A DNA stretch of 64,000 nt, from the NCBI RefSeq assembly GCF_949628265.1, contig NC_088789.1, positions 34,279,883 through 34,343,882 on the forward strand, read 5' to 3'. The notes beneath the pieces were generated by a model that did not search any database, had not been told where the DNA came from, and saw only the letters and a list, made by a program, of their open reading frames with translations. A program made the translations under genes and the position numbers. Every line of letters begins with the position of its first letter. Position 1 is the stretch's first letter. Source of the DNA: Cloeon dipterum (lineage: Eukaryota; Arthropoda; Insecta; Ephemeroptera; Baetidae). Positions 12,488-61,813 of the stretch are shown here, piece after piece.

Positions 12488-13527
12488 TTAAGTGTGAGGT
12501 GTTCGGACAAAAGACGGATTTGTATCCTGAAAAACGGCCAACTCTTCAGCTGTTTGATCAGCTTCACGATGATGTTTTGACGAAGACCCTTTGACGAAGA
12601 CCCGCTGACGCTTTTTCTGGTTGCAATTAATATGCATTTGGTCTCGGCATTTGACTAACAATCCTATTACAATGATCAAACAAACGTTGACGAAAAGGGA
12701 CGAGATCATAATGATAGTAGTTACTGAAATTCCTTCAGCCTCCGGTGGCTTCTCGAAGGAGCCTTGCTGGTAGTGAAGGTCCAGATTCTTAGGGCACCAA
12801 CCTAATTAAAAAAAACTATAGAATTTATTTAAAAACTGTATTTTTAAATTATTTACTTGCATTGCTGTTGCAATTAACGCTGAAAGTGAAGGCGCCAGCT
12901 TCGGTTTCGTTGTGTTGCACGGAGCAATCGCACACCTCGCTAATATTTACCGAGGCGACCTTTGGAAAATTTTTGCACTGTGTTCCACCGCTTGACCCGT
13001 TATACTTGCAAAAGTCGTATTTCAGTTCTTTTGCTGCAACATTTAATGTATTATCTATCAAGTTCAACACATTCTTTTCGTGGGCCAAATCGAGCTCAAA
13101 TTTAAAAGAAAATAAAAAAGAATAGTATTGAATTGGACGGGGGGGGGGGGGGGGGGTGCTGGTTCGCACCTTTCCAGCATCACGGGACGAATGTTTAGCG
13201 TTTCATTGCGGAGGCAAAAGTGGCCCTTGAGTGGGCAGGGGCCCTGCTTGCGGCTCTTATCCGTTTGCGGTGTTATTTAGACCCGGGTTTCAGCATTCGT
13301 GCTAGTGCAGTGCGCGCCCTTCCCTACCCTCGGACAGGGAAAAGCGAAAAATAATAATTTGCTGAAATAGTTGATATTTACTAACAGTTGGCGCCGATCA
13401 GCAGTTGCCAGTTGTCCACGGTCTTGTTTTCAAACTCAATGGAAGCACAATTCGACCACGAAAAGGCGGTGATAAGTAGGAGAAATCTCAACAGGAAATT
13501 TATTTCATGGCCAGCTCTTTTTACCAT
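12488..13527 (-). CDS. Six-cysteine single-pass receptor-like protein, copy 2
   Basis: Exons 13527-13386, 13033-12857 and 12801-12488, intron phases 1 and 1, 210 residues. The signal peptide (FLLRFLLLITAFSW) leads into ASIEFENKTVDNWQLLIGAN. Exon 2 gives KELKYDFCKYNGSSGGTQC, NISEVCDCSV and VNC. Exon 3 gives WCPKNLDLHYQQGSFEKPPE, a helix (MISSLFVNVCLIIVIGLLV) and a basic tail of about 55 residues starting KCRDQMH and ending NPSFVRTPHT. The tail end is shared with copies 6 and 8 (SFVQPPHT), so the full-length tail is ancestral for this subgroup. Acidic clusters and serines (GSSSKHHRE) are present but I see no known signalling motif. All junctions are consistent, so this is a good type member of the family. 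Confidence 0.83.
13139..13350 (+). repeat. Family 1 repeat in intron 1 with an 18-G run
   Basis: A run of 18 G at 13139-13156 directly abuts a family 1 copy (13157-13350) that lies in intron 1 of receptor copy 2. The insertion leaves the splice sites intact. Confidence 0.75.
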
Positions 13528-15335: not shown

Positions 15336-17276
15336 CTATTTTTTAAAATTTTTGCCTGTACTTTTAATCATTTTGGTCATCACGTTTTTAAAGCGAAGCA
15401 AAGGCATGTTGATACTTCCGTTTTGACGCCGTAACAGTAATTTTGCCAATTCTAGATGGTTTCTCTTCACAGCAAGTTGAAAAGCGGTTTGACCGCAATT
15501 TGTTTGCAAATTGACGTCGGCTCCGTGGTCGAGCAGCAATTGAACCATCAATTTATTGTTTTTATTTGTGGCGATGTGCAGAGCGGTCCATCCATTTTTA
15601 TTCTGCACATTTACGTCAGCGCCGTTTTCTAGCAATTTTTTTGTTAGTTCTGGAAATCCCATTAAAGTGGTGATGTGCAATGCCGTCCATCCATCTTGTC
15701 TCTGCAAATTTACGTCTGCGTGGTTGTCGAGCAGCTTTTGCACCATTTCGTGAAGACCTTTTTCCGCGGCGAAATGCAGGGCCGACCATCCAATCCGATT
15801 TTGCAAATTGACCTCTGCACCGTGGTCTATTAGATTTTGCAGCAATGCAGGATTGCGTCTTCTTGCGACGAGGTGCAGGGGGGTCATTCCGACTACGTTT
15901 TCAAAATTCAGGTCTGCACCTTTGTCGAGAAGCTTTTCAAACAATTTAGGAACTGGATTATCTGAAGCTACGATGGACAGAGCTGTACGCCCGTATTTGT
16001 CACACAAATTCACGTCGGCACCGTGGTCGAGCAGCATTTCAACAATCTCTGGTACTTGATTATATCTAGCAGCGTAATGCAGAGCAGTCCATCCTTTTTT
16101 GTCTTTTAAATCGACCTCGGTGCCTGATTTGAGCAAATCGCCGACGAGCTCCAAATGACCGTACTGTGCAGCGCAATGCAGACAAGTTTTCCCTCTGTCA
16201 TCCACCTTCGTAGGATCACTTTTCAGCATCAAATAGAAGTCGAGACAAACGTGATCCGTTTCCGACCAATAATCTGGCTCTTTTCGTGGCACCAAACCCT
16301 CACGATTGGTATATTCTTGCTTTAGTACTAGCTCCCACGTTTTTATAACATTCTCCACTTCAAAAGGATATTTTCTCACGTGTTCCTTTTTTCGCGTCAG
16401 GTCGTTCCTTTTGGAAAAAATGTTTTTTTCCCATTCTGGATTAGGAAATTCAGACGTCGTGTTACTGTTGCTGGACTTACCGATGATAATTTCCGGAACT
16501 TCGTTCTTAAGGGGGCTTGATTCTTGATGTTTTCGCGGAGATTGGCCAGTATTAGACCTTTTGAAGAATATCTGCCTCCCTCCTAGTACTATGAAGATGA
16601 AAAACGCACTTGTTGAAAAAGCAAGCAAACAGTTGAATATTAAAACATCAACATGAATCGTGTCTGCTGATTCCTTGGTGGAGCCTTGCTCATAGATTAG
16701 GCTCAGTTTCTTTGGACACGAACCTATAAAAATTTAGAACAAAATTAAAAGACTCAAAATAATTGTCGAATATAAGTTTTACTTGAGGTATTTTCGCAGC
16801 TGACGCTAAAACGGAAAAAGCCGCCTGCTTTTTCAATGTCAGTGGTCCTTTGTATGGAGCATCTGCACTTTTCATCCATTTCTATCGAAGCTACTTTTGG
16901 AAAATTTTTGCAGCGAACGCCAGTGGAAGAGGCGTTGTACTGGCAGAAGTCATACAAGAATTCATTATCTGCAAGATGACAAATCAATTGGTTAACTGCA
17001 TCAAATTACGGTCAACTAATTAAAGCGACGACACGGTTGGAAAAAAAATTCACATTCAATGAGGAAATGAGAGAGCAATGTTTTTTTTGTGATTTTAGTA
17101 AACGGAAATTTTGTCAAATTCAAATTTAACTCACCATTCGCTCCTATCATGAATTTCCAATGGTTGACTGATGTATCTTGAAACTCAATGGAAGCCCCGT
17201 CTGAGTAAGGAATGGTCGCGAGGATGAGTAAAATAAATGTGAACTTTGTTTTTCCAAGTCTCCTAAAAGTCTCCAT
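15336..17276 (-). CDS. Receptor-like protein with eight cytoplasmic ankyrin repeats, copy 3
   Basis: Exons 17276-17135, 16968-16783 and 16723-15336, phase 1 introns, 571 residues. Exons 1 and 2 encode the family ectodomain: signal peptide FTFILLILATIPYSDG, SIEFQDTSVNHWKFMIGAN, then NEFLYDFCQYNASSTGVRC, KCRCSI and VSC. Exon 3 opens SSCPKKLSLIYEQGS (Trp of SWCPK replaced by Ser), then a helix at about residues 132-158 (LLAFSTSAFFIFIVL). After a charged linker of about 125 residues come eight ankyrin repeats at about 284-546, with consensus words such as GWTALHIATNKNNKLMVQLL and DHGADVNLQ. Ankyrin repeats bind proteins, so the tail probably recruits a cytoplasmic partner. No other member here has them. 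Fusion is supported by one continuous exon from WCPK position to the last repeat. The plus-strand frames over this exon are shadows. Confidence 0.87.
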
Positions 17277-24477: not shown

Positions 24478-24766
24478 CGAGCCTTGCTGGTAGTTCAGGG
24501 TCATTTTCCTGGGGCACCAACCTAAAATTAAAAAAATTGAAACATAATTATTTTCGAAATCTAGTTTCGGATCGCATTATTACTTGACTCACTGTTGTTG
24601 CAGTTGACGCTGAATGTAAAAGAGCCAGCTTCGATTTTGCTGTTTTTGACGGAGCAACTACACACCTCGCTAAATGTTTATTGAGCCAACCTTTGCAGTT
24701 TTCGTGCACTCTGTGTTCCGCTGCTTATCGTGTTAGACCGGCAAAAGTCGTGGTGCAGTTCCTTTG
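24478..24766 (-). pseudogene. Broken receptor family remnant, copy 5
   Basis: Exon 2 relic 24766-24584 keeps the acceptor and donor and reads KELHHDFCRSN at its start, but compared with other copies it has two extra bases after the TQ codons and one extra T before the SEV codons, which put it out of frame. Exon 3 relic begins at 24521 (SWCPRKMTLNYQQGSFE) and runs straight into the family 6 repeat after about 15 codons. I found no exon 1 within 1 kb upstream. It is a decayed copy of the host family. Confidence 0.75.
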
Positions 24767-27700
24767 CTGCAAAATGAAACAAATTAATTCTGCTGAAAAT
24801 ATTATAATGACAAAAAATTCAACATTCGATCTCAGATAATTTTAAATCAAATAATCGTCCGAATAATTGAATTGGATAACTGATTACTTCACTATTGCTG
24901 GCCGACTGGTCCTCAAAATAAAACACCTTTTTGGACTTTGAAAATTAATTACTGCGGCCCGGTGTCTTTTCATCCAATCGGGCCAAACCTGAAATGCAAT
25001 TGACGCCTACTAAATTCCGCGCAAAACCGTGTATTAATCAACCCAATTTGGAGTCCATTGGCGTCCTCTGGGTCCAACGGATCGATTCTATTGTGAAAAA
25101 ACTGGTTTAAATTTTTGGCGAGGGCTATATGGGTCGCAATGGGGCTCTTAATTAACTCGAAAAAAGTTGCCACACCACGCTTATTTATATAGTAAAGCAT
25201 AAATTTAATGATGATTGATCGCGGGAAGCAGCTTCCGCAACGGTGAATTTCAGGGATGACTCTTTGACACGAGCCAATTATGTTATTATAAAACATAATT
25301 TACGTTGGTTAAATCCACAACATAAATCAATCAAAACCATCTATTTTTTAATATAGCATTTGAGAATTGGAAAATACGCTGATTAACGTTGTGAATTGGC
25401 CATTTATATCACAAGGGAACTCAAACACTGCAAGTCAGGGGTGAGAAAATCTCACTGCAGCGCAGTATATAAAATTCTATGTAAGTTAACTCGTGAAGAT
25501 TTTCCTCGTGTGAGTCACTTATCATTTACATTGGTTTGGGAATGCCAACAAAAAATATATAAATTGGTCTGAAGGGTTCTTGCTGGTTTTTGTAATTTTT
25601 AAATCAAAAAATTTAAACATATTTTGAAAACTAATATAATTTCCAATTTTTGAACACGCAGGGACAACAATTTTGAATTGTTCAAATAGTTCCAAGCAAA
25701 AATGAATCAACATGAGTGGACATTGCCGATTTTTAAAATATAATATGATAACTTATAACAAAGATATATATTTGCGAATATTCGGCAATTAAAAATTCGA
25801 AAATTTATAATTGCTTATTACGAGTAAAAAATATCACCAGTTAAGTGAAGCAAATATTATAAATTTTCAGCATATTAGGGGGTTCTAAAATAGGTGCAAA
25901 TAATTTCTTACGACTGCAAATTTGATTTCTAAATATGCACGCAGAAAAGATCAGTCTCGACACTCTAACATAAGATTTCAACTTACTTGAATTTTTCGAA
26001 TTTTTCCATTAAAAAAGCAAGCGCTGTATACACAGGGAGCTGAAACGGACAAACAGCAGCGGCGGCTCACAGCACGAACACTGCCGCCTGTTATCTTGGA
26101 GCTAGAGGTGTGACGTTGAGTGTTTCATTCCACGCCACGCCGAGCCGAGAGTGGGGAACCGGGATGTTTTTGGCGCAAAATGTGACCTTTTCGTGATGAA
26201 ATTCAGTAAAATATGTGGAAAACTCAAAATTGGTGAAATTTTCCAGAATGGTATTTTGAGGGGTGCGTTTTTGCGCATTACAAAATTGACAAACCCTGGT
26301 CAAAATGCCTAAAAATCCTAAAAATTGACGATACTCCAGACATCATTAGGGCATACAAGAAAAAAATATTCAATAGTTTGTTTAGCACAACCCTATATAT
26401 AGCAAGATAAACTGCACCACTGCGTGTGCAGATATATTGAAAAATTTGAAAGAAATAACAAGATGAAAATTTGCCATGTTTACAAATTAAAGTAAATATG
26501 TATTTTAAATTGACTGCTTGATTGACTGCTGATTTTTAGTAAATAAAAATCCTGTCTGGTCCTGTTCCGGATGAAATATTTCCGGTTCCGTGTGAAAAAC
26601 CGGGACAGGACAAGATTCTGGTTTCCGGTTACGGTTTCTTGTCTTGGAATGCGCTCTAGGGAACAAGCAAGAGTGCTTTTTCCCACTACACCCCCTTGCT
26701 TCACACAGCTTTGCTTAATGTGCTCTCTTTGCTGAACATAAATCCTGTCATAAACGGAATACCAAAATTACCTTATACCATCATTTCTTCCAACTGATCC
26801 AAACAAAGCTAGGGGCTTTGTGGCAATTCCTGTTTTTGCACAGGCTCAGAGCAAGACGAGGGGATAGTTTTCTATTTTCGTTCTTCTCAAAATTCCTTCA
26901 AAAATTAAATTATATTGATATTTATCATATCAGAGCAAAAGGTTATTCCGTATACCTAGCAAGTGACGTGTTAATTTGAGATAAATTTATTGCGTTTCGT
27001 TTTTGATTATATTATGCTATATATTTCTTGCTCAGAGGTCAGATGCAATAAAATACCAAAAATATAAACATTTGAAAGCAAGAAAGCGTACAGTCATATT
27101 AGCGAAAAAATGATACAACGATCCATTGCACAGTGTAGTATCACGCCGCACTGAGCCGCAGATTACAATTTTACCGTCAACTGATCATGATTATACTGAA
27201 CACTTTTGACATGGGCTCTTTTTCGCAAAGTGAGGGATATTATTCAGCTTCAGTGAAGTCCTTGAGCTGTGGTGCGGGCAGATCGTTCAACCGGTTGTGC
27301 CCATTCTAAAGGAAAAAGCACGCTGGCCGAAAAAACACTTCGCGCTGGCGGCGGCTGCAGACGCTGGTGCCGGTCGTTCGCGTCGCCTCGCAGCTGCTGC
27401 CTCGATCCAAGATTGTTAATGTCGACAATGTGTGTGTGTGTGTGTGTGTTTGTGTGTGTGTGTTAGCAGATGCTAACGCTGGCAGAAGTCATTATCTGAT
27501 TTTTTTTAAAATTATACACAAAATTTCTTTAGATGCGATTGACTGAGCCCCTGCTCGACGTCTTTGAAAGGCGAGATATATTGGAGAGCAAAAGTGTCGT
27601 ATATAGAGTACCAGAAATTTAATTCTAGTAATAAATATGAAACCTTTCCTGTACGCGAGCGTTCATAAGGGCTATAGATGTCAGTAAAAAGAATCTCTGC

Positions 27701-29116: not shown

Positions 29117-30084
29117 TTAAGTGTGAGGTGGTTGGACGAAAGAAGGACTTGCATCCTGGAAAGCGACCGCCTCTTCAGTTGCTTCGTGGTTTGGTTCATT
29201 TTGAGACCTGTTGACGTATTGCCGCCACTTCTGCGTGCAATAAGAATGCACTCGGTCTCGGCACTTGACCAACACTCCAACTAAAATGACCAAACAAACG
29301 TTGGCTGTAAGGGACAGGACCAAAATGATGGAAGTTCCTGAAATTTCTTTGGCCGCTGATGGTTTCTCAATGGAGCCTTGCTGGTATTGAAGGATTAGAT
29401 TCTTGGGGCACCAACCTAAAATTATAAAAAAATAATTAGAATTTATTTTTAAAATTTATTTTCCAATCATTTACTTGAATTGCTGTTGCAGATGATGCTG
29501 AAAATGAAGGAGCCAGCTTCGGTTTCGTTGTGTTGGACGGAGCAGTGGCACACCTTTCTAATGTCTATTGAGGCGATCTTTGGAAAACTTTTGCACTGTC
29601 TTCCATTACTTGTCGCGTTATACTTGCAAAAGTCGTAATGTAGTTCCTTTGCTGCAAAATAATTCAGTTGAAAACATTCTTTTCATGGGAAAAATGCAAC
29701 AATCGATATCAAATTTCGATAAAACAAAGGGAAAAACGAATAATATTGAATTGCAAGAGGGGTGCACATTTTGCACAACATGACAGATTTTTTTGGTTTT
29801 GCGCTATTCGAATCATCAAATGATCACAACTATGAGTTGATTAAAATTTCCGACAGGTTAAAAAAATCGATTAATAATAATTGTTAATTTTGTTACAGTT
29901 ACACTAGAAAATCTCAAAATTGGCAGGTTATTTCTTAATTTTCTTAAAAACGTTAACTTTACTAACAATTTGCGCCGATCAGCAGTTCCCAGTGGTCCAC
30001 GGACATGTCCTCAAACTCGACGGTAGCACAACTTGACCACGAATCGGCGGTGATAAATAGGAGAAATGTTGGGAGAAATTTCAT
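29117..30084 (-). CDS. Six-cysteine single-pass receptor-like protein, copy 6
   Basis: Exons 30084-29967, 29651-29475 and 29415-29117, phase 1 introns, 197 residues. Signal peptide MKFLPTFLLFITADSWSSC, then VEFEDMSVDHWELLIGAN. Exon 2: KELHYDFCKYNATSNGRQC, KVCHCSV, IIC. Exon 3: WCPKNLILQYQQGSIEKPSA, a helix (SIILVLSLTANVCLVILVGV), then KCRDRVHSYC and an acidic tail ending SPSFVQPPHT. It is nearly a twin of copy 8 at 39434-40397; the likeness extends into introns and both flanks, so the two come from one segmental duplication. Donor of exon 1 is GTTAGT, as in copies 1, 2, 7, 8 and 9. It looks fully functional. Confidence 0.83.
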
Positions 30085-39433: not shown

Positions 39434-40397
39434 TCAAGTGTGAGGTGGTTGGACGAAAGAAAGACTTGCAGACTGGAAAGCGACCGCCTCTTCAGCTGCT
39501 TCGTGGTTTTGTTCGTTTGGAGAGCTGTTGACGTATTGCCGCCACTTTTCCGTGCAATAAGAATGCACTCGGTATCGGTACTTGACAAACACTCCTCCAA
39601 TTATCAAACAAACGTTGGCTGTAAGGGACAGGACCAAAATGATGGAAGTTCCTGAAATTTCTTTGGCCGCTGATGGTTTCTCAATGGAGCCTTGCTGGTA
39701 TTGAAGGATTAGATTCTTGGGGCACCAACCTAAAATTTAAAAATTGGAATATTTTAAAAAACTTATTTAAATTCATTGTACTTGAATTGCTGTTGCAGAT
39801 GACGCTGAAAGTGAAGGAGCCAGCTTCGGTTTTGTTGTATTCGACGGAGCATTTGCACGCCTCCCTAATGTCTATTGAGGCGATCTTTGGAAAACTTTTG
39901 CACTGTTTTCCATTACTTGTCGCGTTATACTTGCAAAAGTCGTAATGTAGCTCCTTTGCTGCAAAATAATACAGTTGAAAACATTCTTTTCGTGGGAAAA
40001 ATCACAATCGATCTCAAATTTCGATAAAAACAAAGGGAAAAATGAATAATATTGAAATGCAAGAGGGGTGCACATTTTGCACATGACAGATTTTTTTACT
40101 TCTAGTTTGGTTTTGCGCTATTCGAATCATCAAATGGTCACAACTTTATGAGTTGATAAAAATTTCCGACAGGTTAAAAAAATTGATTATTAATTATTAA
40201 TTTTGTTACAGTTACACTAGAAAATCTCCAAATTGGCAGGTTATTTCTTAATTTTCTTAAAAACGTTAACTTTACTAACAACTTGCCCCGATCAGCAGTT
40301 CCCAGTGGTCCACGGACATGTCCTCAAACTCAACGGAAACGCAACTTGACCACGAAAAGGCGGTATTGAGTAGAAGAAGTGTTAGGAGAAAATTCAT
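39434..40397 (-). CDS. Six-cysteine single-pass receptor-like protein, copy 8
   Basis: Exons 40397-40280, 39958-39782 and 39729-39434, phase 1 introns, 196 residues. Signal peptide MNFLLTLLLLNTAFSWSSC, then VEFEDMSVDHWELLIGAS. Exon 2: KELHYDFCKYNATSNGKQC, EACKCSV, VIC. Exon 3: WCPKNLILQYQQGSIEKPSA, a helix (SIILVLSLTANVCLIIGGVF), KYRYRVHSYC, and an acidic tail ending LSFVQPPHT. It is the twin of copy 6. The differences fall partly in the ectodomain (for example CHCSVQHNET against CKCSVEYNKT) and the membrane-proximal Cys of the KCRD motif is Tyr here. No sign of damage. Confidence 0.83.
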
Positions 40398-40484
40398 CCC
40401 GTGGCTCCTTTGTTTGAAGAAATCATTCTGAAAACTGGAAATTTTTTATGAGTACACATTCTCTTCTTAAGAATAAAAAAATGG

Positions 40485-40950: not shown

Positions 40951-42789
40951 TTATACCACGTCAGATACCATGCTGGGCGTAAAATATTTTGATTGGCATG
41001 GTGGTATAATTTTTGAAATAAACAAAATTGTCTAAAACCATCTAAATTGAAAAACGGACTAAAACTGTCTGAATTTATGCAAAAACCCGTCTAAAAATGT
41101 CATACCAGTAAATTATAACGATTTTGAGCAAATTTTATAGGATTTATGGCTATTTAAAGGGTTCTAAAATAAAAACAAAACGCCCAGTCGATCGTCTCGA
41201 CTTCCTAGCACTAGATTTTAACTAAATATTTTCGATAATTAATAACCCTTGCTTACAGAGAGGCAGTGTTTTGTGTAGGTGAAGCTCACACGGCCAAACA
41301 GCAAACAGCGGCGCACAACACGGACACTAAAAACTGCGCCCGCACCGCCGCGTCGCAGTTCCCTTGCGGTAGATATCGCGTATATATATAAATTCCCTTT
41401 CCTTTTCATGAGCAACGCTCGCTCGCTCGCTCGATCCCACTATCGGCCACTTCACGGCCTTCAAAACAACAAACACCGCCGCGTGGTCTCGCTCTCTTCG
41501 CCTGCCCTGCTCTTTCTGCCGCACGCCGAACGTTACATTTTTGTTGTAGAGGCAGACGCATTATTAGCGATTTACCAACATATTAATTATATTACTGACC
41601 TAGCAAAAAGTTTAAATCATTGTCTCTCATTGTCAGCAGCATTGGGAAAATGGCACGATTTTTCGCTCATTGGCACGTTTTTTTTAGCCATTCCCTTTAA
41701 ACAGTTGACGTGCGGCATCAGCAAAGTACAGCGATTGCTTGTATACACATGCGTTCGTGTGTGATTCTTGTGTTCGCGCGGCCAGGAAAATTGAAATTGA
41801 GGTATTTATTTCTTCCTGAATTTTCTATCACCTCAAGTGAAACTTGTCCCACTTACCTGCAGGGTGTTCGCTAGCATTGCAATGCACAAAGGTAATAATT
41901 ATTTAGCGCCGAAAGTCTTTTAAATTATTTATTCGTAATAATCGCTGTTGCAAATTTCTGCAACACAGCTAAAACAAAATATTTATATATTTTTAGTGCC
42001 TGTCCACCAGCGGGGTCCAGATGTGCGATGAAATTGGTTCCCAATGCGCAGATCTAAGATGGCGTCAGAACGGGGGAAACAAAAAAATCTCTTTGGATTG
42101 CCGTACGAGTGTCAAGAGTTTGTTTTTACGATCCAAACTACACAATAATTAGTAAAATAAATTCAAATTGTCCCAATATTGACGAAAAATTGTTCCATTT
42201 CGCGCATTTTCACGTGACCGTACTCCACAGGACGCCATATCTGCGCGTCGCCCGCTGCTGCCGACCCCCTCGCAGAACTTGATCTCGCTGAGCACTCGCA
42301 CTCGCCGCCCCTCAAACTCGTCGTCGCGGCAGCTGCCTCTCGCGATAAATCGTCTCTTATATTTTAACAACTATTTATCTCCAATTGCTTTGAATAACAA
42401 GTTCAGTCGAACTTCTATTTCTCTTGAGCAAATAATAATTTCGAGATTTATCATTTCTACTCAGCATCGAATGGCTACATGCACACGGCAGCGAGACCTC
42501 GGCAAGAGGACCAGAAAATTTAGTAATGTTTGTGACTCGCAAAACGAGAAATAAAAACTACAATTAAGAGGCAGGGTGCCTCAGATTTTATAGTTGAAAT
42601 GTCTGAATTACTCTGCTTCTTCTTTAGGTCAAGAAAATATTGAGCAATAAAATCCGAGATATCGCTTCGATTGTTTGACTTTTTGTTTATTTCTTGTAAG
42701 AGACATGCAGAGAGAGCTAAAGGTAAAGCTAACAAAGGATCCGAATTTCCCGGTCCCGACGGACGCTCTAGTCTGAGAATGAGCCAGCA
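40951..42789. other. Intergenic with repeat scraps
   Basis: No gene recognised. The 161-codon frame at 41279-41764 covers a run of GCTCGCTCGCTC and has no domain. 41735-41810 resembles 35755-35900. 42290-42370 resembles the diverged repeat piece at 21050-21120 and 52570-52640. Confidence 0.45.
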
Positions 42790-42985
42790 AAAAAGCAGCC
42801 TTCGAAGGCTCGGGGGTGGACGCGTGACACCACTTGAACATTTTACGGCGTGGAAAACGCCAAAGTTGAAAAATAAAGAATGGCCAATTGCATAGATGCA
42901 ACGGTACTTCTTGGGTAACGGCTGGCTGCCGCGCCTTGGGTTTGCAGGTGCCCTACATCGTACGGCATCTTGGAGCCTTGCTGAT
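42790..42985 (-). repeat. Dispersed repeat family 3 forming the end of copy 9
   Basis: Inverted copy of the family 3 sequence, with TACTTCTTGGGTAACGGC and GGGTTTGCAGGTGCC. It begins inside exon 3 of receptor copy 9. Confidence 0.65.
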
Positions 42986-43533
42986 GGTAATGAAGAAATA
43001 AATTCTTGGGGCACCAACCTATTTAAAAAATTGGAATTAATTATTTACTAAAAATATTTCCAATCATTTACTTGAATTGCTGGTGCAGTTGACGCTGAAA
43101 GTGAAGGTGCCAGAAGTTTCGAATTTGTGTTGGACGGAGCAATTGCACACGTCGTTAATATTTATCGATGCAACCTGCGCAAAACTTGTGCACTGGGTTC
43201 CTTGGCTTGTCGCGTTATACTTGCAGAAGTCGTATTGCAGTTCCTTTGCTGCAAAATATTATGTATATTAATACCACAGTTTAAAATATTGTGTGTTCAT
43301 GGAAAAAAATGCCAAATTCGATTTCACATTTGGATAATTTTGTAAATTTTCGCAGGTTGTTCGTGCCACGCCCCCTTTTCTTAATTTTCTGATATAGGTG
43401 AACTAGTGTACTAACAATTTGCGCCGATCAGCAGTTGCCAGTTGTCCACAGACTTGTCCTCAAACTCGACTGAAGCACAATTTGACCTCGAAGAGGCGGT
43501 GATGAGTATGAGAATTAACAGGAGGAACTTTAT
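42843..43533 (-). pseudogene. Receptor family copy 9, start lost and tail replaced by a repeat
   Basis: Exon 1 (43533-43416), exon 2 (43248-43072) and the start of exon 3 (43018) align well with copies 1 and 2. The ectodomain frame is open: SVEFEDKSVDNWQLLIGAN, KELQYDFCKYNATSQGTQC, VCNCSV and VNC. But the codon at the usual start reads ATA, and I see no other in-frame ATG. Exon 3 follows the family for about 17 codons (SWCPKNLFLHYHQQGS) and then enters a family 3 repeat, reading about 40 foreign codons to a stop at 42843. It is probably a dead gene, unless an upstream exon supplies a start. Confidence 0.7.
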
Positions 43534-43664
43534 TTCGCACCTCCTATTGATGAAGAAATCATTCTGAAATTTAGAAAAATATATTTTATTAGTTCATTGA
43601 AACAAATAATAAAATTTTTGCTAGCAACGAGCAATAAAAAAGTAAAACATGCTGGATTTTCCGC

Positions 43665-43755: not shown

Positions 43756-45159
43756 AGTTTGCATATTTTGAAGAAAGGAAGACGTTCACACGTGAGAGGG
43801 TTAAATTTTACGCGGCCTCTCCCGCTTAATAGATTTATTTTTACTGTAAATCAATATTGTCCTATTAATAAATGATAAAAATCTCCAAAATCCTCAGAAA
43901 AATAATTAAATCGTTCGAACGCCAACTTTTAAATCTCCGCATCGCCCATTCCCCCCACACGAGTTTGCTGATCAGAGTAAAGGCGATGGAGATCAGCTTA
44001 CTCAGAGGGAAATAAAAGAGGGCGGGGGCGAACTATCGACCAAACCGAAATATAATTTATATTTGGCCATAACTATTGTGCAGTATATAGGTGTACGTGA
44101 AACAAGGCTTATCTGCGGATGGTTTGGGAGCGGATCAAAAAGCGTAAAATTAATCATTACAATTAAGATGGACTATTTATTCTAGCCATCCGTGAGACAC
44201 ACTGAATTATAAGAAAAATGCAAATATATTAATGTACGACGCAGTTTTACCTCCAATCCCATCGCTCCAGCTGACATTTAGAGAAAATTGGTGGCTTTAT
44301 GCATGCTCTTTATCAATTTCACGTGAACCAAGTGATCTCACCTTAGTTTCCAAATGTGCTGATGTTTGGTAATTCCGCTCAAAATACTCTGCAACCCTTA
44401 TAGATTCCAAACTGCTGTAACGTGGATTTTGCTGGGCTCTTTTAAGTTCCGCACCCGCCTACTGCAAATAGAAGAAAAGAGTTTACTTCTTTATACACCA
44501 GATAATTTTTGACTAGAAGAGAGCTTCGAAACAAGTAAACAGCTTTATTGACTTGCGCAGATAGTTTTTTGGAAAAACTGCGACGCAGTGCCGACTAGCT
44601 TGGTGGAGTGGCCACGCACTGCCGAATTTTGGCGCCACTGCACGGAAGGCACCGCCGGCAGCGCGCCGTGCCTTGGGTCTGCTTGTCACGTCGCAAGTCT
44701 ATCACTTTAGTCAGGAACCGCTTAACTTAACAAACTGAAAATTATCTTAAATTCAAATTTATTTTTATTTTATTAAATTTTTTGTACGCAAAATATAGAG
44801 ACGACGTTGAAAGATAAATTTTTTACTTTAATTTTAAATAGGAAAATAAATTTTCAATTAACAATTTAGAAAGTAATCCTTTCTTTTGACCTGATAAATT
44901 GGGATTTTGTGATAAAAAACCTAAATGACATTTTTATTTTTTTTTAATCCAAACATGTATTTGAAAATGAAAAAAATAACATTAAAATTATGGCATCAAA
45001 AATTTTAAATCACTAATTTTTTGCAGAGTTTCAATTTTTGAGGGAAGCCAGCTAATACGAAAAAATATAGTATACAGTAAAACCATGAATAATATTTAAG
45101 AAGAGTGTCACAGTTAATAAAATTCCAATCTTGGATGCACAAGGTTGTATTTGAGTCAG
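43756..45159. other. Intergenic, repeat scraps
   Basis: No gene recognised. 44855-44935 matches 58610-58695 (CTTTTGAC ... AATTGGGATTTTGT). Otherwise AT-rich sequence with nothing recognised. Confidence 0.45.
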
Positions 45160-46429: not shown

Positions 46430-47455
46430 TTGAGCATCTGTTGAAATTAATTTTTCTGGAAATTCATTTCAAACGAAGGTAATTCTAATTCAAAATGATG
46501 AGAAATGTAGAAATATTTTGTTAATTGCTGACTGTAGATAAATAACAAATTGTGATACTCTCTGCTCCAAATTAATTTCAATATGAGGCTATTATGTTAT
46601 CCTTATTTCATGCTCCCGCATTTTTTCTCATCCTCGTGGATAGAAATACTGAAATAAAAATTTAAAGGCCCAAATATATTTAAATGATTCTCAATTTCAC
46701 AGTTAGATGGTCCTTGTGCAAAAAAGAACAATCTGGATCGTGTTTCAAAATAAGCTCACATTTTGAGAATTTTGACAGCCAGAAAGGCCACGGTTTGATC
46801 CTCTTTATTCAGCATCTAAAAATAAATTCAAAATTTACGGGTTCGCCCGGCGTGTGCGGCTTGGCAGCTGTAGCCACACTCTCATTCTCTGCCGCAGCTG
46901 CTCTTTTTCTCTCCTCTCGGCGTCAGCTAATTCAGTCAGCTACGCGACTGTCAAGGTCAAGGTCTTTTATTTATTTTGGGTGACTCTTCCGCCCGACCTA
47001 CCCCAAGGCGCGGCGCACGGTGGAATAACAAGACTAAGTTTAAAATAACATATTGAGGGTTGAAAATAAATTATGCTATTCTTGGCAAGAAACAAACTAA
47101 AGCGTTCAGCATGAGCGATTTATTTCTATCTGACTGCTTCTTTTGCGACTATTAAGAGGCTCCTAACGAGGCACGGAGGCACCCACAACCAACGCTGGTT
47201 TGCTCGACGAGTTAAAAAGGGAGAGCACATGGAGGACAATGAACTCGAGAACGCGAGCCAGGGAAGAAAGGGAGAGTTCGGGTTTCGGGTTAGTGGGTCA
47301 ATGACTCACACAGCAGACGAAGCAACGCGCAGAGAGAAGGGAAATTTTATTGCCACGGCCGCCAAATTTGCTTCTTCGCAGAAAGTTGCCAAACCAAACG
47401 CCTAGGTGGCTTCAGCCATTCATAGTGGCCGCTAACATATATATCTTTTTGTTTT
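46430..47455 (+). repeat. Dispersed repeat family 2, longest copy
   Basis: About 1 kb. In order it carries a part shared with 57490-57900, the part shared with 37900-38460 (inverted), and the part shared with 14690-15010, 36000-36590 and 57955-58290. It defines the full element, which has no coding frame. The order of parts is constant, so this is one element and not a cluster of several. A diverged scrap lies at 50770-50870. Confidence 0.75.
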
Positions 47456-53655: not shown

Positions 53656-56035
53656 ATGGTGGAACACAAGTCACGGAAGAAGAGGTGGATGCCGGAACCG
53701 AAGATGCTCGTCATCGCATTATGTGTCCTGATCTCTATTCCAAGCATGAAAGCAGGAGTTCTCATGAAGTTTGAAGATGATTTAGTCGACCACTGGGAAT
53801 TCGCGTTTGGCGCTTCTTGTAAGTATCTTTAAAGATTTGTGAATATGTAGTATGCAATTCGAACCACGATAAGTTTCTAGAACTTTAATATAATGTTAAA
53901 TTCATGATATGGGTACAAGTGAAACTTGCAATCAAATTTCCCAACAGGTATCGCACTGCTATACTATGTATCTTAAAGTTATTTCGATTTGCAGCAAAAG
54001 AAATTAAATACGACTACTGCAAGTACAACGCAACAAGTAAAGGCATGCAGTGCAAAAGTTTGCCACAAGCGTCTACAGATATTCGAAAAGTGTGTAATTG
54101 CACCGTTCAGCGTGATGAAACTAACGAAGGCTCGTTTTTCGCTGTCAACTGCAAAAGTGATTTAAGTAATGCCTTTAAATTTATTTATTTTTGCTGTTTG
54201 GTAATAAATAATTAATTTATTCATACCCTTCTGCTTTACTTCAGGCCACTGCCCTAAGAAACTGTCACTCACCTACGAGCAGGGCTCCTATTCAAAGTCT
54301 CCAGATCCAGATCCAGATGTCACAACGAGCGGAATAAACGGCTGGCTGGTGGTTTCCATAATTTCAATCGCTGTCAACGTTCTGCTCTTGACCACGAACA
54401 TATTATGCCTAATCAATGACAAAGTTCGTGCCTTTTTGAAAGGAAAGGGGAATCAATTGTGCTCATACCCCCGAAGAATTTACAGCAGGTTAATTAAAAC
54501 CTTATTAATTTATATTTGCCTAGCACAAATCCAATTATTTTATTAATTATATAATTTTTCTGTAGGATAATACATAGGGAGCAGGTGTATGAAAATGAAT
54601 CACGCGAGACAGGCCAGATGAAGGAATCAGGTATGAGCAACGAATGGGATGATAATATCAACCCAACTGTCTCAACAGGTGCAAATTTCAGTAAAATTAT
54701 AAACAAACTCTCGATAAATACGCAGATAATTTGACCGTTAAATTATGGTTTATGTTTAAAAAATATTTCTTACCTTGAACGTTATTTCTCCGTTATGAGT
54801 TGTCAGCGAGTTATGCACGTAATCTAAACGATCAATTTTTGCGTTGCGGATTACCACTACGGTCAGATTGGTCAGCCCATACAAATATATACCTCTGCCA
54901 ACCAATGCATGAGAACGTGGTCTGTCCTTTTGCAACATGCGAATAAATATAACTCAAAACGGGAAATTCGCTTATTTGGATGGAAGGAAATTTGTGATTA
55001 TAACATATTAGTTAAATGATACGCTTATTTCCTGTAAAAGTTATAGATTATTCGAGGGGTGTAAGGGAAATTCAAACCCGTCAGATCTTCAAGATTGTTT
55101 TTGATTTAGTCAATAAAATTCATCGTTTTGAAAATCGAAATTTCAGGTAAACACCTAGGAAAGCCAAAAGGAAGAGCAGATCTTGGCTTTTTTGAAGACA
55201 GTAACAACGAAAAAAATAGCGCACGCAAGTAAATTTTCCTAAAAAGAAGTTTCGTTATCCGATTTTAATATGAACTTTTCTCTTAAAAGCATCTGCGTAC
55301 TTTTCATACACTACAACTTCTATGGAATCAAAGACAGGGAACGAGATGGTGATAAAGAGGATGTAGTAACTCTGGAGAAATCCTTTTACGACGACCGGAA
55401 TTGTCACTTTAGAAGCCTGTCATCACCGCGAAAAGATCATCTGCTCCAACTTCTCTCTGATCAAGATAAGCTTTTGTCTCTTTTTGACCTAACAGCAGGT
55501 GCCAAACTTCATTATTTTGTTACACTGCAGACACTAATGAAATACTTTAAAAATAGATGGTGGTCCTTCTGTCCTGGTGCTTGTTTTTCTGTCACAAGGC
55601 AAAGAGGGAGAAAAAATATTAACCGATCATAGGGATGTGGAATCAAATGATTTCGAACACCTCACCAAGAAGGAAGTAAACGACGCACTAGAAAAATTAA
55701 ACAAATTTAAAACCTCATTACCTACACTCACCATATTTTGTGTAAGTTTTAAATTTTGGGTATGCAACATTTACATTCTTTAATTTATTCGCAGCCTTGC
55801 CGAGGAGGTTCAGACGAGGAAACTATCCGATCGGAATCATGCAGGATAACATCAACGGGAATGCACAATGCAGCTGTACCCTTCTCCACATTTGATTGTA
55901 ATCCATCTTAATAATGATGATGATGGTGTTGTATTCAGTACACATTTCTGTGTTTCAGCAACAAGTGCACCACTTGATTCTACACCCATCCAACAATTGC
56001 GCGAGAAAACGATCGAAAACGATGCTATTATTTAG
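53656..56035 (+). CDS. Receptor-like protein with cytoplasmic caspase p20-like domain, copy 10
   Basis: Nine exons: 53656-53818, 53995-54165, 54245-54488, 54566-54678, 55147-55228, 55290-55498, 55557-55741, 55795-55897 and 55959-56035. All junctions are GT-AG and phases agree, giving 448 residues. Exons 1-3 encode the family plan: signal peptide (MLVIALCVLISIPSMKAG), FEDDLVDHWEFAFGAS, KEIKYDYCKYNATSKGMQC, VCNCTV, VNC, HCPKKLSLTYEQGS, and a helix at about 145-168. Exons 6-8 (residues 259 to about 405) resemble peptidase family C14: CVLFIHYNF, then DVVTLEKSF, then VLVLVFLSQGKEG and IFCPCRGG. In active caspases the motifs are SHG and QACxG. Here Gln341 replaces His and CPC replaces QAC, while Cys391-Arg-Gly stays. 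There is no p10 subunit. So it is likely a scaffold or inhibitor, not a protease. An alternative in-frame donor exists at 54630. Confidence 0.82.
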
Positions 56036-57339: not shown

Positions 57340-57480
57340 AATCCCATCATCTTCCTGGCTCGTGTTCTCGGGTTCATTGTGCTCCGCTTTCCCTTTTCAT
57401 CGCTGGTTGTGTGTGCGCCTTCGTGCCTCGTTAGGAGCCTCCATCGCAGAGTAAGCAGTTAGATAGAAAATAAATCGCTC
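57340..57480 (-). repeat. Family 2 fragment, inverted
   Basis: CTCGGGTTCATTGTGCTCCG and CTCGTTAGGAGCCTCC. It stands next to a plus-oriented family 2 copy. Confidence 0.65.
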
Positions 57481-57489
57481 TGTCGTGTG

Positions 57490-58290
57490 CAATTTAGTTG
57501 AATATCTATTCAAAATTCATTTTTCTGGAAAATTATTTGGAATGAAGGTAATTCGAATTCAAAATGACGAAATGTAGAACAAATATTTCGTTAATTTTAT
57601 AAATTCAACATCTGACTAGATAAAGAACAATTAAATTCTGATCTGCTCTTTACCAAGTTAATTTCAAAGAGAAGCTATGTTAGTTGAATCGCCTTATTTC
57701 ATGCTCCCCCTTTTTTTCTCAACCTAACGAATAAAAAAATACTAAATAATAATTAAAGGGCCAATTAAATATTTGAATGATTCTCAATATCACAGCTAGA
57801 TGGACCTCGTGGAAAAAATAACAATCTGGATCGTGTTTCAATAAGCTCACATTTTGACAGCCGCAGAAAGGCCACGGCTTAGATTTCTTTTTTCGGGGAT
57901 TGAAATTCATCTAAAAAAATATCAAAGCCTGGCGTGTGCGGCTACAAACTAAATCGCGCAGCACTTAAGCGATTTATTTCTATCAAATTGCTTGTCTTGC
58001 GACTAGAGGCTCCTAACGAGGCACGGAGGCGCACACGCAACCAGCGTTAAAAAGGAGAAGCGGAGCACAATGAACCCTCAGAACGAGAGCTGGGGAGAAA
58101 AAAGGGAGAGTCTGGGTTAGTGGGTCACACACTCGCACAGCCAACGAAGCGCGACAGGAAGAGAAAAATAATTTCAAGGCCAGCTATTGGCTTGGTTAAG
58201 ATTGAGAGAGCTGCCAAGTCGTACGCTAGATGGCCTCAGCCATTCTCATAGTGGCTGCTAATATACATGTTTTTCGTAGTAATTAATTGG
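57490..58290 (+). repeat. Family 2 copy with internal deletion
   Basis: 57490-57900 matches 46430-46830 and 57955-58290 matches 47100-47455. The middle part present at 46840-47090 is mostly missing. Confidence 0.7.
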
Positions 58291-58694
58291 TGTGCATAGG
58301 ATAGTTCTTGATTTTTTTTAATTCTCGTTTCAGTGTTTGTGTGTCTAAAATGTGAATTTCTTATAATGAAATTGATGCTTCTATTTTAAATTAAAATAAC
58401 TGAGTAATTTTGTTCAAATATACATCAGAGAAGGTATTAAAAATTAATTCTAGTGAACTAATTCCGACGCATAATTAATACTATAAATTTTGAGTGGGAG
58501 TTTTTGGAGAAACTTCTTAACGGGCCCTTTTTCCCCAGCAGGTTTTTGTCGAGCAATCTTTCAATTCTTGCCGCAATTTTCTGTTTAACATATGTTTCAA
58601 ATTTTTTTCATTTTCAATTAAAAATTTAGAAAGCAATCCCTTCTTTTGACTTGATTAATTGGGATTTTGTTATCAAAAACCTAAACGACATTAT
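58291..58694. other. Intergenic
   Basis: AT-rich. 58610-58695 matches 44855-44935. No gene. Confidence 0.45.
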
Positions 58695-59095
58695 TTTTGC
58701 TCCTTTTTATCCCTGTCCTCGAAGCGGGAAGGGGCGCGCACTGCTAGCTCGAATGCTTCATTCCGGGTCCCAATCACACCGCGAACGGATTGAATGAGCG
58801 CACCAGGCCGCCAGCAGGGACCCCGCCCACTGAAGGGCCACTTGCCTCCGCACCGAGGACTGCATTGAAACGCTAGACATTCGTGTCCCGTGAAGCCAAA
58901 TTACGCGTGCTGGAAAGGTGCAAACCAGCCCGTTGAGCAATTTGAGCATTTCGAGTCAATAAACTAACCACTTTTTGCCATCTCTGACATTGGGTAGCCA
59001 GTATTAGATCTCCCAACTGCTCAAATACCTCCCATTGCTTTGACACTCCTGAGAAATGCCGCTGAACAATGCGAGCCAACGGGCTGGTTTGTCGA
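58695..59095 (-). repeat. Family 1 repeat, full-length
   Basis: Inverted copy of 2939-3365 over its whole length (TTTTTATCCCTGTCC at one end, GAGCCAACGGGCTGG at the other). Confidence 0.75.
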
Positions 59096-59796: not shown

Positions 59797-61813
59797 TTAT
59801 TTACCTATGTGCTTCTTTTTAATATGAATATACAAGTATTGTTTTCTCCTATAAAAATTCGGGCACTTGTCACAATAGAAATCTTTACTATTGGTCTTCA
59901 CACAGGTGTTAACATGCTTTTCAAGAAGTCCACGGCACTTGAACTTGCGCTCGCAGCGGCGGCAACACTTACTGGTCCTGTGAATCGGCATGTTATAGAA
60001 ACGTATTTCCTGCGCACACTCGGCGCAGCGGAGGAACGAGTGCGCACAGGACTTGTGGATGTCGAGTAACAATTCCGAGGCAAACAATCTGTTGCACTCT
60101 CGACACTTAACCGTCTTTGGAAAATGTTTGCGTTGCATGTGATTCGTCATATTATATTTGTTGAATGCAGAATAGCCGCAATGGTCGCAACTCACGCTTT
60201 TGGTGTGAACAGTTTTCACGTGTCTATTCAACAAGTGAGGCAAGGCGAACTGTTTTCCACACTCTTTGCATCTGCTGAAGGTTAGATAGCAGCTCTTCCT
60301 ATGAAATTGGTCCAAACCCTTGCACTTGAAACGGATTTTGCAATTGGAGCAAGACCTCGGCTTTCCGTGGTACGTCTTGAATCCGACAGCCACGTCCTGG
60401 CCACAAGATTTGCACTTTTCGAACGTGTGAATTTTGTTATGGTGTTTTTTAACGACCCACTTTGAGCCGAATTTGGCGTCGCAACTGCCACATTTGAAGA
60501 TCTTTGGCATGTGCTTCGACTCTTCGTGATGTCTCAAATGGTACTTCTCAGTGGTGAAATACTCGCAATGCTTGCATAAGTAAAGATCTTGATTTACGTT
60601 TTTCTTGTGGGACGAGTTGATATGGATGCTCATTTCATACTTGGATTTGAAGAACTCATCGCAGCCGTAATGCTTGCACGCCACCGGAAGTTCCGGATGG
60701 ACGCGTTTCATGTGATGAGTCCGCGACGAGAATGAGGAAAATATAGTATCATTTTCACAATATTTACAACGAATTTTCTTCTTTTCACGAGGTGGTCTGT
60801 AAGGTTTCTCGTGAAAATCGTTCTGCATGTGCTGCTCCTTTTCCTCGTCGGTGTGAAAGTAAGTCGTGCAGCCCCGAAATCCACATTTGATGGCTTTTTT
60901 GTGCATAGCTTTGACGTGATCCATCAGTCGTCCGAATCTGTTGCCGCAGTAGAGACACACTCCACTCAGCGGTTTCCTTCTCGGAGATATTTCCTTTTCG
61001 TATTTGGCCAGATCAACCTCTTCCAACTGCACCCAACACTGTTCCACTTCTCCAACTGTAAAATTTCAATCAATTTATTAAACACCAGTTTGTGTACAAC
61101 AGATTGTATTATATTGTAATATTAGGTCAGTCATTTGGCTGGTAATTTTGCAGCCTGGGTCTGACTCATCTGAAAGTGATAGAAGTCCATGCTGTTATCA
61201 CAAAGTTTACAAACACAGATTTGGCTTCACGGTACACGAATGTCTAGCGTTTCAATGCAGTCCTCGGTGCGGAGGCAAGTGGCCCTTGAGTGGGCTGGGT
61301 CCCTGTGCGACCTGGTGCGCCCATTCAATCCGTTCAAGGTGTTATTCGCACTCGGAATTCAGCATTCGTGCTAACACATTGCGCGCCCTTCCCGGTCCGA
61401 GAGGACACGGATAAAAAAGAGCAAAAAAAGAAAAAGTACCTGAATAGTTGTCCCGAAGAACCCTAGCGTTTTCTTCCAAAACAAGGTTTTTCGGCCACCA
61501 AGCAACAGCCTCGTCTCCAGACTCATCCCCAAACCTAGAACCGGGGTCAATGTTAAAATAATAAATTAAAATTCATGGAAAAAACTGACTCTGCCTGCCA
61601 GATGCAAAAATAGCAGATCAAAGAGTCTTCTTCGACCACGTCCGGCAAGTTTTCGTCTTCTTCCGTCAGGTTCATGACCTCCATGGCCCATTTCCTCAGC
61701 TTGAACCTGTCCACCTGCGACGCGAGGACGTGGCCGTCCGACGTCGGACACTCGCACAGTCTGCACAGCGGCTTTTGAATGGGTGTTTTTCCTTCTTTGC
61801 CTCGCAGCTCCAT
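59797..61813 (-). CDS. ZAD and C2H2 zinc-finger protein
   Basis: Three exons: 61813-61590, 61534-61440 and 61055-59797, all GT-AG with agreeing phases, 525 residues. Exon 1 encodes the start of a ZAD (zinc-finger associated domain): C17-R-L-C20 and C67-Y-F-C70, the four zinc ligands of this domain. Exon 2 completes it (DESGDEAVAWWPKNLVLEEN). Exon 3 holds about a dozen C2H2-type fingers from CLYCGNRFG to FYCDKCPNFYRRK, joined by irregular linkers; a few (CKSCGQD, CRRCERK) are degenerate or paired out of register. ZAD proteins are dimerising nuclear DNA-binding factors, numerous in insects. The target is unknown. Intron 2 carries a family 1 repeat. The start is the first ATG before the ZAD cysteines. 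I see no damage. It is unrelated to the receptor cluster in sequence, and nothing shows that it regulates it. Confidence 0.9.
61221..61432 (+). repeat. Family 1 repeat in intron 2 of the zinc-finger gene
   Basis: GTCTAGCGTTTCAATGCAGT through GGATAAAAAAGAGC. It stops a few bases short of the exon 2 donor at 61440, so the element tail lies directly beside the splice site. The open frames here are repeat shadows. Confidence 0.75.

Follow-up and report, generated by a model that had tools for sequence, protein, structure and literature searches.

A member of a tandem receptor family with a predicted caspase p20-like tail in Cloeon dipterum

The nine-exon gene structure found on the plus strand at positions 53656-56035 of a 64,000-nucleotide stretch of Cloeon dipterum DNA, which is referred to here as the window, is real and unusual. 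Its exons join into one open frame encoding 448 amino acids plus a stop, and the predicted order of domains in the product is a leader, a six-cysteine ectodomain, a single transmembrane segment and a caspase p20-like domain. The explanation that we favour, tentatively and at a little under an even chance, is that the gene encodes a type I membrane protein of a tandem receptor family, whose caspase p20-like tail would be a dead scaffold or decoy that regulates caspase signalling.

The initial annotation had proposed that nine exons join in frame, and this holds for the whole structure, with all eight introns having a GT donor and an AG acceptor. Seven of the introns are of 53-176 nt, whereas intron 4 is of 468 nt. 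The exons are as follows.

53656-53818, plus strand: exon 1, start codon, hydrophobic leader and beginning of the ectodomain
53995-54165, plus strand: exon 2, ectodomain with Cys 63, 74, 88, 90 and 107 and N-glycosylation sequons at 66 and 89
54245-54488, plus strand: exon 3, sixth ectodomain Cys (114), putative transmembrane segment and basic juxtamembrane stretch
54566-54678, plus strand: exon 4, predicted cytoplasmic linker
55147-55228, plus strand: exon 5, linker
55290-55498, plus strand: exon 6, beginning of the p20-like domain, with CVLFIHYNF and Arg276
55557-55741, plus strand: exon 7, p20-like core, with SQG in place of the caspase SHG (Gln341)
55795-55897, plus strand: exon 8, with CPCRGG spanning the exon 7/8 junction and Cys391 as the aligned catalytic Cys
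55959-56035, plus strand: exon 9, short C-terminus and stop, without a p10

The leader, the helix and the topology were called from hydropathy and charge rather than by a dedicated predictor. The N-terminus of the product is basic and has a hydrophobic peak at residues 15-38, whilst the one long hydrophobic stretch, at about residues 142-169, is the putative transmembrane segment. The signal peptide, six-cysteine ectodomain and helix described in the initial annotation are all present, the first and last by hydropathy, and they are encoded by exons that the gene shares with its paralogues.

These paralogues are revealed by exon 2, which occurs nine more times, always on the minus strand (tblastn within the window, E-value 1.5e-9 or better, with exon queries that were approximate in that some edges carried intron residues or missed a junction residue). 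The copies are labelled A to I and the 5' ends of their second exons are given below.

4046, minus strand: copy A, 5' end of exon 2
13037, minus strand: copy B, 5' end of exon 2
16972, minus strand: copy C, 5' end of exon 2
21786, minus strand: copy D, 5' end of exon 2
24770, minus strand: copy E, 5' end of exon 2
29655, minus strand: copy F, 5' end of exon 2
33762, minus strand: copy G, 5' end of exon 2
39962, minus strand: copy H, 5' end of exon 2
43252, minus strand: copy I, 5' end of exon 2

A counterpart of exon 1 accompanies eight of the nine, all but copy E (E-values 4e-5 to 0.044, some of them weak), and in those eight the GT donor with which intron 1 starts lies at an identical codon position. 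The exon 2 donor is likewise in an identical position in every copy except E, and the phase of exon 3 is the same as in the focal gene in A, B, D, G and I, where the borders of intron 2 were inspected. In an alignment of the focal exon 2 with eight of the copies, from which copy E, with its stop in that exon, was excluded, the paralogues share 43-64% identity with the focal sequence and five cysteines are invariant. Because the first two intron positions and phases match those of the inspected paralogues, family membership is supported; the focal gene has the leader, the six-cysteine ectodomain, the one helix and the same two intron positions. Judged by sequence, its exons 1-3 are those of a member of a tandemly duplicated family of putative receptors.

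No known domain could be assigned to this shared part. Exons 1-3 (in a query that carried one extra Ser) and exon 2 alone match no Pfam family up to an E-value of 10, and the nine aligned exon-2 rows return two weak families, with a best E-value of 0.034 in one member, which are taken as chance. The structure predicted for exon 2 with its paralogues has a mean pLDDT of 57.4 and a pTM of 0.26, and is too poor for a fold search. No relative in viral contigs was identified with exon 2, with exon 6 or with the nine-row alignment of exon 2, and that alignment found none in prokaryote genomes either.

The copies differ in what follows the ectodomain. B, F and H reach a stop inside exon 3 and have short tails of similar sequence, and A and D likewise stop inside exon 3, giving five of the nine paralogues in all. 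Three short-tailed copies (12491-12802, 29120-29416 and 39437-39730, minus strand) end alike, in a peptide of the form FQxxxxSFVxxPHT, which may be a tail motif. In copy G the stop falls inside the hydrophobic segment. Two copies are damaged, E (24585-24770, minus strand) by a stop in exon 2 and I (42523-43252, minus strand) by loss of frame in exon 3. The remaining copy carries a long tail.

15339-17231, minus strand: paralogue C, with the same ectodomain exons and a transmembrane exon 3 that continues as a single exon into ankyrin repeats

The tail of copy C matches Ank_2 of Pfam with an E-value of 4e-116, and the existence of this paralogue indicates that the family is able to carry long cytoplasmic domains. 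Nothing elsewhere in the window convincingly resembles exons 4-9 of the focal gene (tblastn, best E-value 0.084).

Several repeats also occur in the region. Three pairs of direct repeats, of 89-169 nt and 79-89% identity, were found in a search of positions 40000-64000: the pair 40273-40441 and 43409-43577 covers exon 1 of copies H and I, and the others lie at 46644-46748 and 57737-57841 and at 44850-44938 and 58610-58698. Inverted repeat arms at 58726-58901 and 61219-61392 contain 87 nt at 97% and 86 nt at 78% complementarity. These arms, which are about 2.3-2.5 kb apart, enclose a C2H2 zinc-finger open reading frame (59800-61065, minus strand), and together the repeats and this reading frame are possibly a mobile element. 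Ten other long open reading frames of the window match no Pfam family up to an E-value of 0.1, and a search of Rfam gave nothing at the gathering threshold.

The central question for the focal gene is whether the receptor and p20-like halves belong together. The alternative is that they represent two neighbours, a short-tailed receptor and, apart from it, a p20-only caspase-like gene that begins at an ATG at 55270, with the receptor ending by read-on from exon 3 (stop at 54544) or exon 4 (stop at 54732). This ATG lies in intron 5, in frame with exon 6 and 20 nt upstream of its acceptor, and the form that runs from it through exon 8 likewise matches the C14 family (PF00656, E-value 1.9e-4). Moreover, the fusion is weakened by the length of intron 4, far longer than the others, by the two AATAAA motifs that it holds (at 54942 and 55112), and by the paralogues that stop inside exon 3. 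The motif is also found at 54203 and 54333, and is thus common in the region; none occurs between the stop at 56035 and position 57469.

Against two neighbours stands exon 5, which would be left without a role despite its AG and GT borders, its fitting phases and its coding score. Reading upstream from this exon in its own frame, one meets the stop at 55107 before any ATG, so that the exon, if coding, must be spliced to an earlier coding sequence. Exon 4 fits it in phase, and the GT donors of exons 3 and 4 are both in phase with the following exon. Of 2000 random open segments, 3.05% score as high in codon use as exon 4 and 3.3% as high as exon 5, as compared with 1.9-5.1% for exons 1-3, where a model partly trained on the paralogous exons 2 and 3 flatters the focal exons 2 and 3, and 10-14% for exons 6-8. 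Exons 4 and 5 are probably joined in one mRNA, within a fusion that we infer. A single gene appears about twice as likely as two genes, and the specific arrangement of a short-tailed receptor next to a p20-only gene, whilst a serious candidate, is doubtful.

The favoured reading of a receptor with a caspase-like tail depends on the nature of the domain encoded by exons 6-8. The initial annotation had placed CVLFIHYNF, DVVTLEKSF, LVFLSQGKEG and CPCRGG along a caspase p20, and all four motifs are present in that order. The profile search against peptidase family C14 that it had suggested gives a match of residues 258-410 to Pfam Peptidase_C14 (PF00656) with an E-value of 2.7e-4 and 21.1 bits. 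Exons 6-8 match with an E-value of 2.3e-4, and exons 6-9 with 1.9e-4 and 21.7 bits, so that the scores, from 21.1 to 21.7 bits, sit at the gathering threshold of 21.4. The match covers profile positions 3 to 138-143 of 233, which is the p20 part only, and it is collinear over p20 across two exon junctions and thus three exons. None of six shuffled versions of residues 258-410 matches C14, although two bring up weak matches to other families (E-values 0.13 and 0.097).

Exons 5-9 (217 amino acids) have no Pfam match, and the full protein matches no Pfam family up to an E-value of 1, in a query with one Ser too many where exons 2 and 3 meet and one Asp too few where exons 6 and 7 meet. A local profile of eight caspases scores residues 258-412 at 13.2 bits, a value reached by none of 5000 shuffles, the best of which gives 7.9 bits; 13.2 bits corresponds to an E-value of 0.048 at the size of Pfam, so that the local profile is unconvincing by itself. 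With filters off, the same profile gives 13.4 bits for exons 5-9 and 11.2 bits for the whole protein. When the p20 half of this local profile is run against 2153 six-frame fragments of the window, those with exons 7, 8 and 6 rank first, fifth and seventh, none of them individually significant (best E-value 0.23). A phmmer search of PDB sequences found no caspase, NCBIfam gave one unrelated weak match to the p20 domain (E-value 0.13) and PADLOC gave nothing.

The resemblance could have arisen by chance in an unrelated alpha/beta domain. The borderline C14 score and the lack of any solved caspase in the pairwise search weaken the homology and speak for such a coincidence, but a Pfam E-value near 2e-4, collinearity along p20 through both exon junctions and the outcome of the 5000 shuffles are hard to reconcile with it, and we regard it as very improbable. 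The homology of the p20-like domain to C14 is judged to be real but remote.

With homology accepted, the catalytic residues can be considered. They were mapped by alignment to the caspases of the local profile, using the caspase-3 residue numbers Arg64, His121, Gly122, Gln161, Cys163 and Arg207. The catalytic Cys163 is kept as Cys391 and Gly122 as Gly342, and Arg64 aligns with Arg276. The catalytic His121 is replaced by Gln341, such that SHG reads SQG, whilst Gln161 becomes Cys389 and the QACxG pentapeptide reads CPCRG. Arg207 has no counterpart in the alignment, nothing in exons 8-9 aligns with p10, and of the eight window fragments listed for a p10 profile none falls between 53.6 and 64 kb, in or downstream of the gene. 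The p20 assignment of the initial annotation hence stands as homology (PF00656, E-values 1.9e-4 to 2.7e-4), but it passed over the fact that LVFLSQGKEG and CPCRGG lack the His and the QACxG of a caspase and that p10 is absent.

An active membrane-tethered caspase would be consistent with the aligned catalytic Cys and the Arg64 equivalent, but it is scarcely credible given Gln in the place of His, CPCRG in the place of QACxG and the missing p10. These same three changes make the domain, by sequence, a pseudo-caspase, and the tail not a working protease.

The loss of p10 and of the catalytic His would also be expected of a decaying chimeric pseudogene, in which a duplicated receptor captured the p20 part of a caspase gene and is no longer functional, and the array does include the damaged copies E and I. 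However, the reading frame is open through all nine exons, their splice borders are GT-AG, and neither the hydrophobic segment nor any of the six ectodomain cysteines has been lost. Decay is consequently considered improbable.

If the gene is instead functional, as we favour, extra exons would have given a family receptor a caspase p20-like cytoplasmic tail, with one transcript presumably joining the receptor and p20 halves and the tail predicted to face the cytosol. Such a tail is likely to serve as a signalling element or a decoy and not to cleave proteins. With less certainty, engagement of the ectodomain may allow the dead tail to bind caspases or their partners as a scaffold or decoy, and the receptor may in this way regulate caspase signalling without cutting substrates itself. 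By analogy with the role proposed for inactive caspase relatives in other animals, the tail could bind and regulate caspases or their partners. The usual caspase dimer surface is missing from a p20 that has no p10, and the decoy role is uncertain because such a domain might fail to pair in the normal manner. A broader proposal is that one ectodomain is combined with swapped tails (short, ankyrin and pseudo-caspase), and that the tethered dead p20, once the receptor is engaged by ligand, controls caspase signalling without a death-domain adaptor; this we consider unlikely. The tandem family, which puts different tails behind one ectodomain, would amount to a shuffling of effector exons on an unchanging sensor, and a receptor ending in a dead p20 would let p20 function be tested without catalysis and without p10.

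Receptors normally reach caspases through adaptor proteins. c-FLIP is a catalytically inactive relative of caspase-8 that acts at death-receptor complexes; it is soluble, contains death effector domains and in its long form has both subunits. The focal tail resembles c-FLIP in being an inactive caspase relative, by prediction, but unlike c-FLIP the focal product would be membrane-bound. No death effector domain was found in the full protein, where no Pfam family matches up to an E-value of 1, in an approximate query that missed C14 too.

Inactive relatives of caspases are known from several animals. For Diptera, PMC3141678 refers to caspase-like decoys, and these insect homologues likewise have a caspase domain without catalytic capacity; the excerpt of that source mentions no membrane receptor part. 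In C. elegans, CSP-2 has the unusual predicted active-site motif VCCRG and CSP-3 is without an active site, although the anti-apoptotic role of csp-3 could not be replicated (PMC3591282); the active sites are altered or absent as in the focal protein, and neither protein is described as a membrane receptor in the available part of that paper. Oyster p20-only caspases have varied active-site motifs, and some are clustered in the genome (PMC7836458). They share with the focal protein a p20 without p10, and the portion of that report to hand does not describe them as receptors. In Acropora, a caspase-like region that lacks both catalytic residues, His and Cys, lies next to a normal one (PMC4715348), and a survey of immune genes in Daphnia pulex lists eight putative caspases (PMC2685406). 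The accessible text of PMC8195603 contains no closer relative. At the level of titles and the openings of abstracts, a literature set covering few subscription journals revealed no caspase-bearing receptor from an arthropod.

The closest architecture is the amphioxus TNFR-caspase, which is predicted to be transmembrane, is supported by cDNA and conserves QACxG (PMC2575513). It contradicts the view in the initial annotation that caspases are known only as soluble or adaptor-recruited proteins, and it provides a precedent for the receptor-caspase arrangement. Whilst the amphioxus protein has a TNFR ectodomain and keeps QACxG (PMC2575513), the focal protein has neither the catalytic His nor a p10, and no TNFR cysteine-rich repeats were detected in exons 1-3 or in exon 2 with Pfam up to an E-value of 10. 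If the favoured reading is true, a dead p20 that forms the receptor's own tail would be another shortening of the chain from receptor to caspase, beside that of the amphioxus TNFR-caspase.
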